Of a stretch of 35,317 nt of DNA, positions 13,222 to 28,119 are shown piece by piece. The position numbers and the translations under genes are program-made. A model generated the notes under the pieces. It worked only from the letters and a program-made list of their open reading frames with translations. It searched no databases and was not told the DNA's origin. The stretch lies in NCBI GenBank assembly GCA_947589275.1, contig CANQAQ010000008.1, positions 1 to 35,317 of the forward strand, in the 5' to 3' direction. Source of the DNA: an uncultured Bacilli bacterium. GTDB taxonomy: Bacteria > Bacillota_I > Bacilli_A > RF39 > UBA660. Every line of letters begins with the position of its first letter. Positions within the stretch are counted from its first letter, which is position 1.

Positions 13222-13250
13222 TTGACTTTAAAGTTTACATATAGTATACT
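13222..13250 (+). promoter_or_regulatory. Strong sigma-A promoter of the E1-like peptide cluster
   Basis: TTGACT (13222-13227), a 17-base spacer, then TATACT (13245-13250). Transcription would start near 13257, leaving a leader of about 80 bases before the peptide gene. AACAACTGG at 13269-13277 in this leader is complementary to CCAGTTGTT at 13414-13422. Confidence 0.75.
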
Positions 13251-13336
13251 TTATTTAGATAATTAATTAACAACTGGTAAACTTATTCATATAAAAATTA
13301 TCTATAAATAATATAAATATGAAGGAGGAAAAAATT

Positions 13337-13402
13337 ATGAAAATTACTGTTAAAAAATTAGAATCAACTAAATTTTCATGTCATGTTGACCAAAATTGTT
13401 AA
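13337..13402 (+). CDS. 21-residue putative RiPP precursor peptide
   Basis: An ATG eight bases after a perfect AAGGAGG opens a 21-codon frame ending in TAA. The peptide has a basic N-terminal half (MKITVKKLEST) and a C-terminal end FSCHVDQNC with two Cys, one His and a C-terminal Cys. It sits behind a consensus promoter and before a terminator-like hairpin and an E1-like enzyme gene. This is the usual layout of a modified-peptide precursor: high peptide expression with partial read-through into the enzyme. Microcin C-type systems have comparably short precursors acted on at their C-terminal residue by MccB. That this peptide is the substrate of the next gene is an inference from position. A leader peptide for attenuation is the main alternative. 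Confidence 0.6.
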   Translation: MKITVKKLESTKFSCHVDQNC

Positions 13403-13408
13403 TAATTT

Positions 13409-13440
13409 AAAGTCCAGTTGTTTATCAATATGGACTTTTT
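13409..13440 (+). terminator. Hairpin terminator/attenuator between peptide and E1-like gene
   Basis: An 8-bp stem (AAAGTCCA 13409-13416, TGGACTTT 13431-13438) with a 14-base loop, ending in TTTTT. It is placed so that most transcripts would end after the peptide gene. Its left arm and loop can pair with a 9-base leader segment (13269-13277). Confidence 0.7.
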
Positions 13441-13461
13441 AATACTACGAGGTGATTATAA

Positions 13462-14505
13462 ATGATAGTTATTAATCCTTCAAAACCTTTTTATATAAAT
13501 AAAAAAAATAAAATTGTTAGAATGGGTAATTTTAAAGAAACAGGAAAAGAAATTGAATATGAAGATAATAAATTCTTAACAATTTTTGAATATATAAAAG
13601 AACCTATTGAATATAATGATTTAGTTTGTAAGTTATTATTAGAAACTAAATATAGTAAAGAAGATATTATTAATACTATAGATTATTTATTAAATGAAAA
13701 TTTCATATGTAATTATGATGATATAGAAAATATATTAAATGATAAATATTATAGTAGAGAAAAATTATATTTTTATATGTTAAATGATAAAGTTATAAAT
13801 TTTACTAGTGATATATTAAATAAAAATATATTAGTATTAGGAATTGGAGGTATTGGATCAATTGTTATTCAAATTCTTGCAAGAGCAGGATTTAAAAATT
13901 TTACAGTTGTTGATTATGATATTGTTGAAAATTCTAATTTAATAAGACAATTATATAATTTAAGTGATATAGGAAAATATAAAGTAGACGTTATAAAAGA
14001 AAAATTATTACAAATTAATAAAAAAATAAAAGTAAATATTGTAAGAAAAAGAATAGAAAAAGAAAAAGATATTAATGAAGAAATTTATAAATCTGATTTT
14101 GTATTATGCACAATTGATAAACCACTTAGAGTAATAAGAAGAATTATAAATAATGTTTGTATAGATAAAAATAAACCTGTTTTATTTTCTGGTTTTTCAG
14201 AACATGTAGCAATGGTTGGACCATTTGTTGTTCCAAATAAGACCGCATGTTTATCATGTATTGAAATAGATGATATTGATGAACCATTATTTAATGTAAA
14301 AGTCTCCCCTTCTTTTGGTCCAGTATGTTATTTAATATCATCAATTGTTTCAAATGAAATAATAAATTATTTTATAAATTTTAAAAATGATAATTTAATT
14401 GGAAAAACGCTTATGTTTAATATGTGTAATTATAAATGTGAAATAATAAAATGGAATAAAAATAAAAATTGTAAAAAGTGTGGTGATAAAAATGATAGTA
14501 AATAA
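13462..14505 (+). CDS. E1-like (ThiF/MccB-type) adenylating enzyme, probable peptide modifier
   Basis: 347 residues; AGGTGA precedes the ATG. Residues about 1-110 form an extra N-terminal domain (FYINKKNKIVRMGNF..., then a small helical part), in the position of the peptide-binding clamp of MccB and of TOMM ThiF-like proteins. From about 120 comes the E1 fold: LVLGIGGIGS binds ATP, DYDIVENSNLIRQ carries the conserved Asn-Leu-x-Arg-Gln, GKYKVDV gives the Lys, and CTIDKP the acidic residue. Zinc ligands are the CLSC pair and the CKKC pair near the C-terminus. All adenylation residues seem intact. ThiF, MoeB and HesA act on ubiquitin-like proteins, but no such partner or thiamin/molybdopterin gene is nearby, while a 21-aa peptide gene lies 59 bp upstream. 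It overlaps the ABC-F gene. Confidence 0.82.
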   Translation: MIVINPSKPFYINKKNKIVRMGNFKETGKEIEYEDNKFLTIFEYIKEPIEYNDLVCKLLLETKYSKEDIINTIDYLLNENFICNYDDIENILNDKYYSREKLYFYMLNDKVINFTSDILNKNILVLGIGGIGSIVIQILARAGFKNFTVVDYDIVENSNLIRQLYNLSDIGKYKVDVIKEKLLQINKKIKVNIVRKRIEKEKDINEEIYKSDFVLCTIDKPLRVIRRIINNVCIDKNKPVLFSGFSEHVAMVGPFVVPNKTACLSCIEIDDIDEPLFNVKVSPSFGPVCYLISSIVSNEIINYFINFKNDNLIGKTLMFNMCNYKCEIIKWNKNKNCKKCGDKNDSK

Positions 14506-16117
14506 TTTAAATAAATCATTTAATGGAAATAAAATATTAGATAATGTTAGTTTTACACTTGATTTTGATGATAAAGTATGTTTAGTTGGAAATAATGGTG
14601 CTGGAAAAAGTACTCTTTTAAAAATTTTATCTGGAAATTTAGATAAAGATTCTGGAGAAATTAATTTAAATGGAGAAAGTATTAAATTATTAGAACAAGA
14701 AATTGATATTAGTGATTATAATTTAACTGTAATCGATTATATAAAATCTAAAACTAATATATTATCATTAGAGGAAAAATTAAAAAAATTAGAATCAAGT
14801 TTAACCGAAGATAATATGGATGAATATGGTAATATTTTAGATATGTATTTAAAATTAGATGGTTATAATTTTGAAAATAATATAACTATGATATTAAATG
14901 GACTTGATTTTAATCAAAAATTAGATTGTAAAATAGGAAAATTGTCTGGTGGAGAAAAGATAAAAATAATGCTTGCAACACTTCTTTTAAGTAATCCTGA
15001 TATTTATTTATTAGATGAACCAACTAATAATTTGGATTTAGATTCAATAAAATTTTTAGAGAATTATCTATCAAAATTAAATAAGAAAATGATAATAGTT
15101 TCACATGATGAAGAGTTTTTAAATAATATTTCAAATAAAATTCTTGAACTTAAAGATGGAAAACTTAATGAATATAATCTACCATATTATACATATTTAG
15201 AATATAAAGAAAATGAATATAATAAAAAATTAGATGAATATAATCAAAACAAAGAACAAAAAGAAGAGTTAAAAAAGAAAATAAAAGAAAAACAAGAATG
15301 GTCAAATAAAGGGACAAGTAATAAAAAGAAAAAAGATAATGATAAATTATCCTCTAATTTTGCAAAAGAAAGAACAAAAAAGACATCTTCCGAGGTATCA
15401 AAATTAACAAGAGAATTAGATAAAATGCAAGTAATTGATTTTAAAGAAAAAGAAGATGTTTATTTTGATATTAATTTTTCTAATGAAAAAGGTAATAAAG
15501 ATATAGTAATAGAAAATTTAATATGTGGTTATGATTCATTTAAAATAAATCCTATTAATTTAACAATACCATTTGGTACAAGAGTTAGTATTACTGGTAA
15601 AAATGGAACTGGTAAAACTACATTTATAAAAACTTTATTATCACAAATAAATAAATTAAGTGGTAATATACATATTGGAAATGAAGTAAAATTTGGATAT
15701 ATATCACAAGATACTATATCTAATAATTTAGATATATCAATATATGAATATTTAACTAATGATAAAGATGAAATAAATAATGGTTTATTATTTACTATTC
15801 TTAATAAATTTAATATATCATATAATGATAGAAACAAAAAGTATTCTTCTTTAAGTCCTGGAGAAAGAACTAGAATTAATTTAGCTAAACTTTCTTTAGA
15901 TAAAGTTAATGTGCTTTTATTAGATGAAGTTACAAATCATTTAGATATTGAAGCGCTTAATTTAATATATAATGCCATTAAAGAATTTAAAGGAACAATA
16001 ATTAGTATTTCGCATAATAGAAAATTTAATCAAATACTAGATCCTGATATTATATATGATATAAGTGATGGTAAAATAATTTATAAAGATTCTATTAATA
16101 AACTAAATATGAAATAG
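14492..16117 (+). CDS. ABC-F family ATPase (possible ribosome-protection immunity protein)
   Basis: 541 residues from the ATG at 14492, overlapping the E1-like gene's last codons; in-frame GTGs lie at 14480 and 14483. Two ABC domains without membrane segments: Walker A GNNGAGKST and GKNGTGKTT, signatures LSGGE and LSPGE, Walker B YLLDEPTNNLD and LLLDEVTNHLD. A long Lys/Glu-rich linker (about residues 240-320) joins them; in ABC-F proteins this interdomain linker reaches the ribosomal E-site or peptidyl-transferase centre. Such proteins either tune translation or dislodge antibiotics. The second Walker B has Val in place of the usual Pro (DEVTNHLD). Being coupled to a peptide-modifying enzyme suggests self-protection, but the sequence alone does not separate resistance from housekeeping types. 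Confidence 0.88.
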   Translation: MIVNNLNKSFNGNKILDNVSFTLDFDDKVCLVGNNGAGKSTLLKILSGNLDKDSGEINLNGESIKLLEQEIDISDYNLTVIDYIKSKTNILSLEEKLKKLESSLTEDNMDEYGNILDMYLKLDGYNFENNITMILNGLDFNQKLDCKIGKLSGGEKIKIMLATLLLSNPDIYLLDEPTNNLDLDSIKFLENYLSKLNKKMIIVSHDEEFLNNISNKILELKDGKLNEYNLPYYTYLEYKENEYNKKLDEYNQNKEQKEELKKKIKEKQEWSNKGTSNKKKKDNDKLSSNFAKERTKKTSSEVSKLTRELDKMQVIDFKEKEDVYFDINFSNEKGNKDIVIENLICGYDSFKINPINLTIPFGTRVSITGKNGTGKTTFIKTLLSQINKLSGNIHIGNEVKFGYISQDTISNNLDISIYEYLTNDKDEINNGLLFTILNKFNISYNDRNKKYSSLSPGERTRINLAKLSLDKVNVLLLDEVTNHLDIEALNLIYNAIKEFKGTIISISHNRKFNQILDPDIIYDISDGKIIYKDSINKLNMK

Positions 16118-23268: not shown

Positions 23269-23547
23269 ATGTCATGTAAAAATAAAGATAATGGGAGTAA
23301 AAAGAAAGAAAAAAGAATTTTTTGCGAAGCTTGTACATGCTCAAAAGACGATAATGATAAATTAAAAGTTGAATGTATAAACTGTGAAGATGATAGTAAC
23401 AAAATAATTGTTTGTGATACATGTAAGTGTGTAGATGATAATGTAAATAATAATAAAGAAATTCGTCTTGAAAATTGTTCTTTAGATGGATGTGAAGAAA
23501 AAACAATTTACATCACATGTACAGAATATAATGAAGATTTAAATTAA
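23269..23547 (+). CDS. Small protein with 12 cysteines, unknown function
   Basis: 92 residues; AAAGGAG precedes the ATG. Cysteines lie at 3, 19, 22, 24, 36, 39, 49, 52, 54, 70, 75 and 84. Two similar blocks, FCEACTCSKDDND (18-30) and VCDTCKCVDDNVN (48-60), each with C-x-x-C-x-C, suggest an internal duplication; CxxC at 36-39 fits metal binding or disulphides. The rest is very rich in Asp, Asn, Glu and Lys, with no signal peptide. I do not recognise a family. A metal-binding or spore coat protein would fit, but this is a guess. It is followed by its own terminator. Confidence 0.7.
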   Translation: MSCKNKDNGSKKKEKRIFCEACTCSKDDNDKLKVECINCEDDSNKIIVCDTCKCVDDNVNNNKEIRLENCSLDGCEEKTIYITCTEYNEDLN

Positions 23548-25849: not shown

Positions 25850-26020
25850 CTAAATTAAGCTAGTCAATCTTTTTCTATAAGCTATTGTTAAGTTTCCTAA
25901 ATTATTATTTAATGAAAATTTACAATTGCAATTACAGTTGCTACAAGTACATTGATTAGCTACTACCAATTTTTCTTTTTTTAACTTTGCTAAAGCTTTT
26001 GTTCTGTTAGCTAAAATCAT
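25850..26020 (-). CDS. 56-residue Cys-rich RiPP precursor (substrate of the radical SAM enzyme)
   Basis: The ATG at 26020 follows GGAAAGGAAGG, which overlaps the end of the radical SAM gene (stop 26022-26024); the frame ends with TAG at 25850. A basic N-terminal leader (NRTKALAKLKKEKLVVANQ, residues 5-23) is followed by a core with five Cys at 24, 26, 29, 31 and 33 (C-T-C-S-N-C-N-C-N-C) and then a 23-residue tail (FSLNNNLGNLTIAYRKR...) without Cys. Alternating Cys next to a SPASM radical SAM maturase is the pattern of clostridial Cys-rich peptides (CLI_3235/CcpM type) and of ranthipeptides, where Cys is linked to a neighbouring residue by a thioether. Family assignment is tentative; the operon link is firm. 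Confidence 0.82.
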   Translation of the reverse strand: MILANRTKALAKLKKEKLVVANQCTCSNCNCNCKFSLNNNLGNLTIAYRKRLTSLI

Positions 26021-26021
26021 A

Positions 26022-27362
26022 TCAATCAGCCTTCCTTTCCAAATTACTTTCTATTGTAACATAAAAATATTGTTTTATCAACCATTCAAGCAGCTTTTTA
26101 TAATATATACATGATGCATTATCCAAATTTGTTCTCTTACCAAATAATACTTCAGCTTGCAAAGGACATCCTCCACCACAAACTGATAGTGCTGGACAAT
26201 ATTTACATTCTTCCTTGTCTATTGTATACATTTTTAACCATTCGTTATTTGCAGGATTATTTAAAATATCTGCTATATCATCTTTAATTATATTTCCGAC
26301 AATATTTTTATATGATCTAGAATCTCCTTGACATATACATACATCTCCATTGGGCTTTATAGTTAATTGATTTAGTCCAACTGCACCACAACTATGGAAT
26401 TTAAAAGTTTGATTTAAAAACATTTCAATTTGCTCTTTTACTTTTTCTTCATCAATACCATTGTCTTTTAATTTTTTATAAGAATTTAATATAAAATCAC
26501 TCATTTTATTATAATGTTTTTCCCAATCATTAGTGTTACTAGAATAATGATATAAATTCCAAAAAACATTTTTAATCTTACTATCTATTAACCAATTTAA
26601 TACTTCTTGTTCATTTTCTACTACATCGGGTGTAACAGTTGCAGATACACAATAACTGCTATTCATGTTATTTAATAATTTTATAGCAGCCATTGCTTTA
26701 TCATAAACACTGTTGTTACCGGATTTGAAAACTCTATTTTTATCATTTATGAATTTTGGGCCGTCAATAGAAATACCTATTCCAATATGTTTATCCATTA
26801 AAAATTGTATTATTTCTTTCGTTAACAATGTACCATTTGTAATAATTGTTAATGTTATATTCGATTTTTTTTCTTCTTGAATATAATTTATCGTTTTTTT
26901 TACAACTTCAAAATTTGTTAAAGGTTCTCCTCCATAAAAAATTATTTGAGATTCCTTTATCTTATTTTTTTCTAATTCTGCTAAAAATTTATCAACAGCA
27001 ATTTTTGCAGTTTTAAAGGACATTTTGGTATATTTTTGGCTTGAAATGGGACTGCTTTCAATAAAACAATATTTACAAGCTAAATTGCAAAAAGTTGAAA
27101 CATTTAAATACATAATTGTTGGAATTTTTACTTGCTTTTTAATTCCAAATTTTAATGTTTCATAAACCTCTTCCATATCAGATGTTGTTTCATAAATACC
27201 ATTTTCTATCATTAATTTTGTTTCTTCTTTTGTTAAATTAAAGTTTTTTATATCATTGATTTTTTCCTTTTCAACAAATATTATTTGCATTAATATTGAA
27301 TTAAATATTGCTTCATATTGCTCATCCATTTTAATATGTTGAAAATATTTTGATAATTTCAT
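26022..27362 (-). CDS. Radical SAM/SPASM peptide maturase
   Basis: 446 residues from the ATG at 27362; TAGGAGGAAATAGT just upstream fixes this start over an in-frame codon at 27410. Residues 1-80 precede the barrel and may bind the leader peptide. The radical SAM site is C92-NLA-C96-KY-C99; IFYGGEPLTN and TLTIITNGTLL are the next family motifs. The C-terminal SPASM domain has Cys in FHSCGAVG, VCIC, ECKYC, VCGGGCP and NASC, enough for two auxiliary 4Fe-4S clusters. Such enzymes form thioether or C-C crosslinks in peptides. It lies between a methyltransferase gene (stop 27364) and the Cys-rich precursor gene, both adjacent without spacers, so they form one operon. Confidence 0.9.
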   Translation of the reverse strand: MKLSKYFQHIKMDEQYEAIFNSILMQIIFVEKEKINDIKNFNLTKEETKLMIENGIYETTSDMEEVYETLKFGIKKQVKIPTIMYLNVSTFCNLACKYCFIESSPISSQKYTKMSFKTAKIAVDKFLAELEKNKIKESQIIFYGGEPLTNFEVVKKTINYIQEEKKSNITLTIITNGTLLTKEIIQFLMDKHIGIGISIDGPKFINDKNRVFKSGNNSVYDKAMAAIKLLNNMNSSYCVSATVTPDVVENEQEVLNWLIDSKIKNVFWNLYHYSSNTNDWEKHYNKMSDFILNSYKKLKDNGIDEEKVKEQIEMFLNQTFKFHSCGAVGLNQLTIKPNGDVCICQGDSRSYKNIVGNIIKDDIADILNNPANNEWLKMYTIDKEECKYCPALSVCGGGCPLQAEVLFGKRTNLDNASCIYYKKLLEWLIKQYFYVTIESNLERKAD

Positions 27363-27363
27363 A

Positions 27364-28119
27364 CTATTTCCTCCTAATAACAAAAATTTGTTTCCTGCTA
27401 GTTTTATCAAATTTTTCTAAATTATAATCTCCATATAAACCAATTATTTCAAAATCATAAGCTTCAAATATATTAATTATTTCTTGATGAAAAAATATCC
27501 TGTTTGGTAATATATATTCTTTTATAGTTTCGCCATTACAAACATACTTTTTTTTGTATATACAAGTCAAATTAATGATATCAAATTTTCTACTTTCATA
27601 TAATTCTATCATTTTATTTTTCATATTAAATTCATTTGTTTTAATATAATTACTTACATCTAATAAATCATTTATTGTAGGGTTAATTGTATCAATAACT
27701 ACTTTCGTATCCTTGCTACATAATTTTTTTAAATTATTAAAGCACAATTTTATATCATTCACATCATAAAAATTATTTATTACATTAAATGGAAAAATTA
27801 TTAAATCATAAGTTTTATTAACTAAAAAAGTTTTAAAATCACTATTATATAGTTTTACATTTTTATAATTATATTTTTTGTTACAATATTCAATTATTTC
27901 TTTAGAAAAATCAACACCATCATATAAGTCAACTTTATCATGTAATAATTTTATTAATCTACCATTACCGATACCAACCTCCAAAATTTTTTTTGAATTA
28001 TAATTATTTATTATTTTTGACCAAAAATATATGTCATCTTTATAGTTTTGAAATTCATTTATATATAAATTGGGAGTTGAATATAATTTTTTAATTAATT
28101 TATTATAATCATTTTTCAT
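27364..28119 (-). CDS. Class I SAM-dependent methyltransferase in the RiPP operon
   Basis: 251 residues. Motif I KILEVGIGNGRLI (about residues 39-51), motif II YDGVDFSKEII and motif IV YDLIIFPFNVINNFY mark a Methyltransf_25-like enzyme; DTINPTINDLLD follows. The start overlaps the upstream rRNA-methyltransferase-like gene by 11 bp, and the stop lies one base before the maturase start. The substrate may be the peptide or something unrelated; its place inside the operon favours a role in the product or in immunity (inference). Confidence 0.8.
   Translation of the reverse strand: MKNDYNKLIKKLYSTPNLYINEFQNYKDDIYFWSKIINNYNSKKILEVGIGNGRLIKLLHDKVDLYDGVDFSKEIIEYCNKKYNYKNVKLYNSDFKTFLVNKTYDLIIFPFNVINNFYDVNDIKLCFNNLKKLCSKDTKVVIDTINPTINDLLDVSNYIKTNEFNMKNKMIELYESRKFDIINLTCIYKKKYVCNGETIKEYILPNRIFFHQEIINIFEAYDFEIIGLYGDYNLEKFDKTSRKQIFVIRRK

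Follow-up and report, generated by a model that had tools for sequence, protein, structure and literature searches.

Within a 35,317-nucleotide contig of an uncultured Bacilli bacterium of the RF39 lineage (CANQAQ010000008.1 of assembly GCA_947589275.1; the whole stretch is referred to as the window), a plus-strand operon of three genes encodes a 21-residue peptide, a ThiF/E1-like adenylating enzyme and an ABC-F ATPase, with a hairpin following the stop codon of the peptide gene. The peptide very probably serves as substrate for the enzyme, because it is conserved, its motif co-occurs with an intact E1 gene, the N-terminal domain of the enzyme has the predicted fold of a recognition element for ribosomally synthesised and post-translationally modified peptides (RiPPs), and the enzyme resembles MccB of microcin C; these four observations, like the persistence of the ABC-F gene described below, rest on sequence. 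The best explanation overall, which we regard as probable, is that the operon makes one modified peptide and that the ABC-F protein protects the maker. The original prediction, made from the letters of the window, had paired peptide and enzyme and had proposed a new RiPP class. The pairing stands. The class does not, since RiPPs made by adenylyltransferases that join a RiPP recognition element (RRE) to a ThiF-like domain are known, and the precursor length and the C-terminal Cys have precedents in EnfA and GrcA. The system is an unreported branch of this group, distinguished by its new invariant core and by the unusual partnership with an ABC-F; neither the partner nor the invariant KF(S/A)CHVDQNC core was found in the literature searched.

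Conservation of the peptide

The E1 gene was looked for across 386 family genomes. Intact close relatives are present in three further genomes, G007 (71% identity), G029 (58%) and G169 (57%), with peptides encoded 59–66 bp upstream (MKITVKKIKSTKFSCHVDQNC, MKFTIKKLNTTKFACHVDQNC and MRFGVKKLRVVKFACHVDQNC). The original prediction had staked its case on conservation of the 21-codon frame ending in FSCHVDQNC, and a conserved short precursor adjoins the enzyme at all four intact loci. A degenerate pattern for CHVDQNC matches exactly four of the 386 genomes, once each, and all four carry an intact E1; a reversed-pattern control gives no match in the same set. Summed over all pairs of the four peptides, the last nine codons show 14 synonymous and 4 non-synonymous differences, each of the 4 a Ser/Ala exchange at a single position, versus 11 synonymous and 30 non-synonymous differences in the first twelve codons (the leader). 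Judged by these codon differences, the C-terminal part of the peptide is under selection at the amino acid level. Many RiPP families have a conserved leader and a variable core; unlike these, the conserved core and variable leader found here suggest one fixed product.

Profile searches across the order and the phylum gave no further intact copy; besides a single remnant, in G467, they returned ThiF systems of ind-like or other types. No DNA match to CHVDQNC was found in viral contigs, and no E1 relative in viral contigs by profile search or in phage records. In plasmids the relatives are all distant and of ThiF/MccB/Pantoea type, with no more than 36.5% identity among the matches listed, and a scan of genome contigs for E1 gave a single weak, unrelated match (L031).

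A stable hairpin (z −2.9 to −5.4) stands 3′ of the peptide stop in each of the four genomes, with unrelated sequences. A terminator scan of the region finds no terminator and the T-run is weak; what had been read as an attenuator is better called a hairpin, and it is proposed to act by partial termination or by stabilising the transcript end. In the microcin C operon, a terminator at the same place gives MccA in excess over the enzymes (PMC6495379). By analogy with mccA-mccB, the hairpin would limit read-through into the enzyme gene and leave the precursor in excess.

The adenylating enzyme and its relatives

The enzyme matches PF00899 at residues 115–338 (E=2e-48), and residues 1 to about 95 form an extra domain, which agrees with the original description of an intact E1-like protein carrying an additional N-terminal domain. 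The N-terminal 96 residues modelled alone have a predicted local distance difference test (pLDDT) score of 84.5. Each of the top 12 Foldseek matches of residues 1–96 is a chain of a RiPP enzyme or an RRE, with a best E of 0.009; they include TbiB1 with leader peptide, McbB, ThcOx, lasso B1 with leader, MccB, PqqD and PaaA; the E-values are weak, as expected at such small size, and the list is uniform. VIA-align returns NisB, MadB, MccB and TruD, with Z about 10 to the RREs of NisB, MadB and MccB. The domain is thus predicted by modelling to fold as an RRE, the fused element of RiPPs made by ThiF-like adenylyltransferases (TLAT).

MccB is the best solved-structure relative by sequence (6e-29), followed by ThiF (6e-18), with PaaA lower. 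In fold comparisons of the whole enzyme model (mean pLDDT 70.9), MccB chains come first, matching the model from end to end, then PaaA, then ThiF/MoeB over the adenylation domain only; for the adenylation domain, VIA-align gives a tie among UBA5, MccB and MoeB. GIGGIG, R162, K174 and D219 align with MccB and supply the GxGGxG and Arg/Lys/Asp signature of TLAT adenylation domains. The three residues, which correspond by motif to the ATP-site residues R167/K180/D225 reported for EnfB, and two CxxC pairs (a CxxC...CxxC zinc site) do not vary; the distant enzyme of G039 has them too. In the tree, the four enzymes form one clade (100/100) apart from a TcdA-like E1 also present in the same genomes. 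ThiF/MoeB-type proteins are single-domain E1 enzymes with a carrier ending in GG; here the RRE is added, and the flanks contain no open reading frame (ORF) for such a carrier, in agreement with the lack of a nearby ubiquitin-like partner noted originally.

Adenylyltransferases in which an RRE is fused to a ThiF-like domain, with short precursors as substrates, form an established group that includes MccB, PaaA, GrcB, EnfB and IndF (PMC12250964; PMC12150305). Microcin C shares the succession of short precursor, hairpin and RRE-ThiF enzyme, and no solved structure matches the present enzyme better over its full length than MccB. The microcin C precursor, however, has 7 residues and ends in Asn, whereas the present one has 21 and ends in Cys (all four precursors end in QNC, with Asn penultimate), and microcin C has the MccC exporter and MccE/F immunity where an ABC-F is found here. 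In the GRC peptides, GrcB joins Glu35 of GrcA to the last residue, Cys39, as a thiolactone (PMC12250964). They likewise combine an RRE-ThiF enzyme with a final Cys and an upstream acidic residue, but that residue is Glu at −4, compared with Asp at −3 and a second invariant Cys here; the two radical S-adenosylmethionine (SAM) enzymes, separate RRE and transporter of GRC are missing from an operon of peptide, E1 and ABC-F only. Enterofaecin also has a 21-residue precursor (EnfA) and an RRE-ThiF enzyme with the same ATP-site residues (EnfB), but its WWIVI core and several transporters have no equivalent here. The indolylamide system ind (IndA/IndF) has an RRE-ThiF enzyme acting on the C-terminus, but with an NWYF(I/V) core, a peptidase and a transporter in place of F(S/A)CHVDQNC; the closest matches that these searches gave beyond the family are of ind-like type, with the G039 enzyme at 33% identity. 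PaaA of pantocin A shares the RRE-ThiF fold, as the next fold match after MccB, and differs in its Glu-Glu bicyclic chemistry and its precursor.

Two ind-type (NWYF) precursors lie upstream of ThiF-like genes in other genomes, MKELKLNKIIKTAKEDVVVNWYFV (L004:1190-1264, G039) and MKELVLVEVNESSILDGNWYFI (L080 oriented 1125-1193, G623). Both genomes read TGA as Trp, and the core Trp codon in G039 is TGA, so that annotation with the standard code would truncate the peptide. A 2025 review calls the ind group exclusive to Lactobacilli.

The ABC-F protein and the proposed product

The ABC-F protein, whose gene shares a 14 bp overlap with the 3′ end of the E1 gene as originally noted, scores 381.8 bits against NCBIfam NF000355 (ribosome protection), barely above the cut-off of 380. 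Members of its subfamily share at least 54% identity with it, and the next match is at 38%; they are present in 11 of the 386 family genomes and in G467. Four genomes have it with peptide and intact E1, five (G079, G199, G198, G104 and G467) with a degraded E1 remnant upstream, and three (G369, G378 and G258) with no recognisable E1 upstream. The ABC-F frame is complete in G079, G198 and G199. The gene tree needs about three changes of E1 state; G198, G199 and G258, for example, nest beside G029 with its intact E1. Among pairs of these three genomes, all without intact E1, the ratio of non-synonymous to synonymous substitution rates (dN/dS) is 0.11–0.12, and the ABC-F gene is therefore still under selection there. 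The CHVDQNC motif is absent from all seven pattern-searched ABC-F genomes that lack an intact E1, and no recognisable leader was seen near the ABC-F gene in six loci examined. Such a distribution is to be expected of an ABC-F that gives protection from the product and stays useful after the maker has decayed. In G079 (L042:8323-8843), a pair of small ORFs resembling, by eye, a Phd/YefM-YoeB-type toxin-antitoxin occupies the position expected for the 5′ part of the decayed E1.

The chemistry, the target and the role in immunity are what we infer. The RRE would hold the N-terminal strand of the precursor, MKITVKKLES, while the F(S/A)CHVDQNC core enters the adenylation site; by homology with MccB, GrcB, EnfB and IndF, a carboxylate would be converted to an acyl-AMP. 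Capture of this intermediate within the peptide would release one water, and the choice of nucleophile would set the product. An intramolecular product of −18 Da is rather likely; a thiolactone macrocycle is the leading candidate, at about even odds. Such a thiolactone could link the C-terminal carboxyl to the thiol of Cys15, giving a seven-residue ring that is exactly the invariant block CHVDQNC, or the side chain of Asp18 to the thiol of Cys21, by analogy with Glu35-Cys39 of GRC. The leader would be removed by a protease encoded outside the operon. The product would then act on translation, with the ABC-F shielding the ribosomes of the maker; immunity is on balance the favoured function of the ABC-F, and the ribosome as target is more tentative. 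Taken whole, the scheme of a minimal three-gene RiPP pathway, in an uncultured lineage with small genomes, for a ribosome-acting CHVDQNC thiolactone, with dedicated ABC-F immunity and ABC-F genes orphaned after decay of the maker, is unlikely to be correct in every part.

Several observations weigh against a modified peptide with ABC-F protection. The nearest solved structure to the ABC-F is the housekeeping YbiT (3e-62), ahead of the resistance proteins PoxtA and ExpZ/VmlR (2e-55). The ABC-F frames of G104 and G467 are open and run off the contig end, and persistence of the gene would be compatible with any peptide-independent function as well. Only four intact loci with peptide and E1 are known, and within the operon none of the four (two near contig ends) encodes an exporter, protease, peptidase or receptor; the lack of an exporter had been recognised at the outset. 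TldD/TldE, a protease pair known in other RiPP systems, is encoded 412 bp 3′ of the ABC-F gene in G007 (L039:5404-8053) and is absent from the other five of six genomes tested; it was rejected as a general pathway protease. Clustering of the enzyme with MoeB/ThiF had been named at the outset as grounds for refutation. Architecture and best structural match speak against such clustering, but the sequence tree is compatible with kinship at its deep nodes: neither a grouping with E. coli ThiF/MoeB (p-AU 0.26, approximately unbiased test) nor a joint clade of RRE-ThiF enzymes (p-AU 0.195) is rejected.

The almost invariant core would also suit a secreted signal, a thiolactone resembling an autoinducing peptide, with the ABC-F tuning translation instead of conferring immunity. 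GRC and enterofaecin peptides are suspected signals in the literature, and a palindrome lies over the promoter. The operon is, however, without receptor, regulator or exporter, and the ABC-F persists without the peptide; we consider a signal unlikely. Slightly less probable is true microcin C chemistry, in which the C-terminus would be joined to a nucleotide to give a Trojan-horse cysteinyl-nucleotide directed against cysteinyl-tRNA synthetase. In its favour, MccB leads the solved structures both in sequence and in fold, and the hairpin between peptide and E1 genes is as in mccA-mccB, but MccB requires the C-terminal Asn present in all surveyed microcin C precursors (PMC6495379), and microcin-type AMP transfer is less likely because this residue is lacking in a peptide that ends in Cys. 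MccC/E/F-type genes are absent from the operon, and an ABC-F is ill-suited to protecting a tRNA synthetase.

ABC-F resistance genes are often controlled by stalling leaders (PMC9226507, PMC10314930), and a short ORF, a hairpin, a downstream ABC-F gene and C-terminal conservation are all compatible with an upstream ORF at which ribosomes stall and which, together with the hairpin, switches on the ABC-F upon antibiotic exposure as in vmlR and msrD, the E1 being a passenger. Such a leader would be expected to stay with the ABC-F gene, but the motif stays with E1 (none of the seven other pattern-searched ABC-F family genomes has it, and the six loci examined show no leader), which counts against this arrangement; moreover, the E1 gene separates the peptide gene from that of the ABC-F, and the E1 enzyme has an RRE, which binds peptides. 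We regard stalling as improbable. Least probable of all is conversion of the peptide carboxylate to a thiocarboxylate, which would make the peptide a mini sulfur carrier or a binder of metal. ThiF itself forms thiocarboxylates through an acyl-AMP, the tree does not reject grouping with ThiF/MoeB, and the C, H, D and C residues could bind metal, but no sulfurtransferase or ThiS-like protein lies nearby, and ThiF/MoeB have neither the RRE nor the MccB-like architecture.

Operon features and neighbouring loci

The operon is flanked by a divergent polyprenyl synthetase gene and a convergent collagen-like gene; the three genes therefore form one operon. The consensus promoter proposed at the outset is present and kept in G007, and its counterpart in G169 is TTGACA-17-TATAAT, but promoter-like sites are not enriched in the window (37 versus 40.9 in shuffles). 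The scan by itself proves nothing in AT-rich DNA, and support for the promoter comes from its conservation in G007 and the comparable site in G169. The palindrome over the promoter is a possible operator.

Table 1. Features of the peptide, E1 and ABC-F operon in the window
Feature	Position	Strand	Evidence
Sigma-A-type promoter TTGACT-17-TATACT	13222..13250	+	Sequence; scan 10/12; identical in G007, comparable in G169
Imperfect palindrome TAAAGTTTAC-ATATA-GTATACTTTA overlapping the promoter	13229..13253	.	Sequence; in G007 with one central change
Shine-Dalgarno AGGAGG of the peptide gene	13323..13328	+	Direct sequence; also in G007 and G169
Gene for the 21-residue precursor peptide MKITVKKLESTKFSCHVDQNC	13337..13402	+	Conserved in G007, G029 and G169
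Near-invariant F(S/A)CHVDQNC, putative core	13373..13399	+	Codon-pair differences
Hairpin between peptide stop and E1	13409..13438	+	Fold z=-4.25; equivalents in three relatives
ThiF/E1-like adenylyltransferase gene, 347 aa	13462..14505	+	PF00899
N-terminal RRE of the enzyme (predicted), residues 1-93	13462..13740	+	Model pLDDT 84.5; RRE fold matches
ABC-F ATPase gene, 541 aa, proposed immunity protein	14492..16117	+	NF000355; persists where E1 is lost

Elsewhere in the window, a second RiPP-like cluster lies at 25850-27410 on the minus strand. It has a gene for a radical SAM/SPASM enzyme (26022-27410), whose nearest model, TIGR04136, scores below cut-off; immediately after it comes a 56-aa ORF containing QCTCSNCNCNC (25850-26020), and two methyltransferase genes lie upstream. 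The plus strand at 23269-23547 encodes a Cys-rich protein of 92 aa, which has repeated CxxC-like motifs and matches no NCBIfam model. On a plasmid of L. plantarum (L090, NZ_CP028335.1), two near-identical short ORFs, MISM(E/K)KVSEVKVLAHEEKNGSC, lie about 361 and 244 bp upstream of a ThiF-family gene accompanied by a major facilitator superfamily transporter gene; both end in Cys with acidic residues upstream, and the locus is another possible ThiF RiPP with a C-terminal Cys. In L034 (G336) and L035/L073 (G302), another distant ThiF-like gene is preceded in both genomes by a gene for a mutually related protein of about 200–230 aa, possibly a separate system.

A modified peptide made by this operon would add a candidate for new core chemistry to the ThiF-like RiPPs. 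The system is tiny (peptide, enzyme and ATP) and hence directly accessible to mass spectrometry. Protection of the maker by its partner would tie an ABC-F translation factor to self-protection from a ribosomally synthesised peptide, and would suggest a natural origin and reservoir of ABC-F protection genes.

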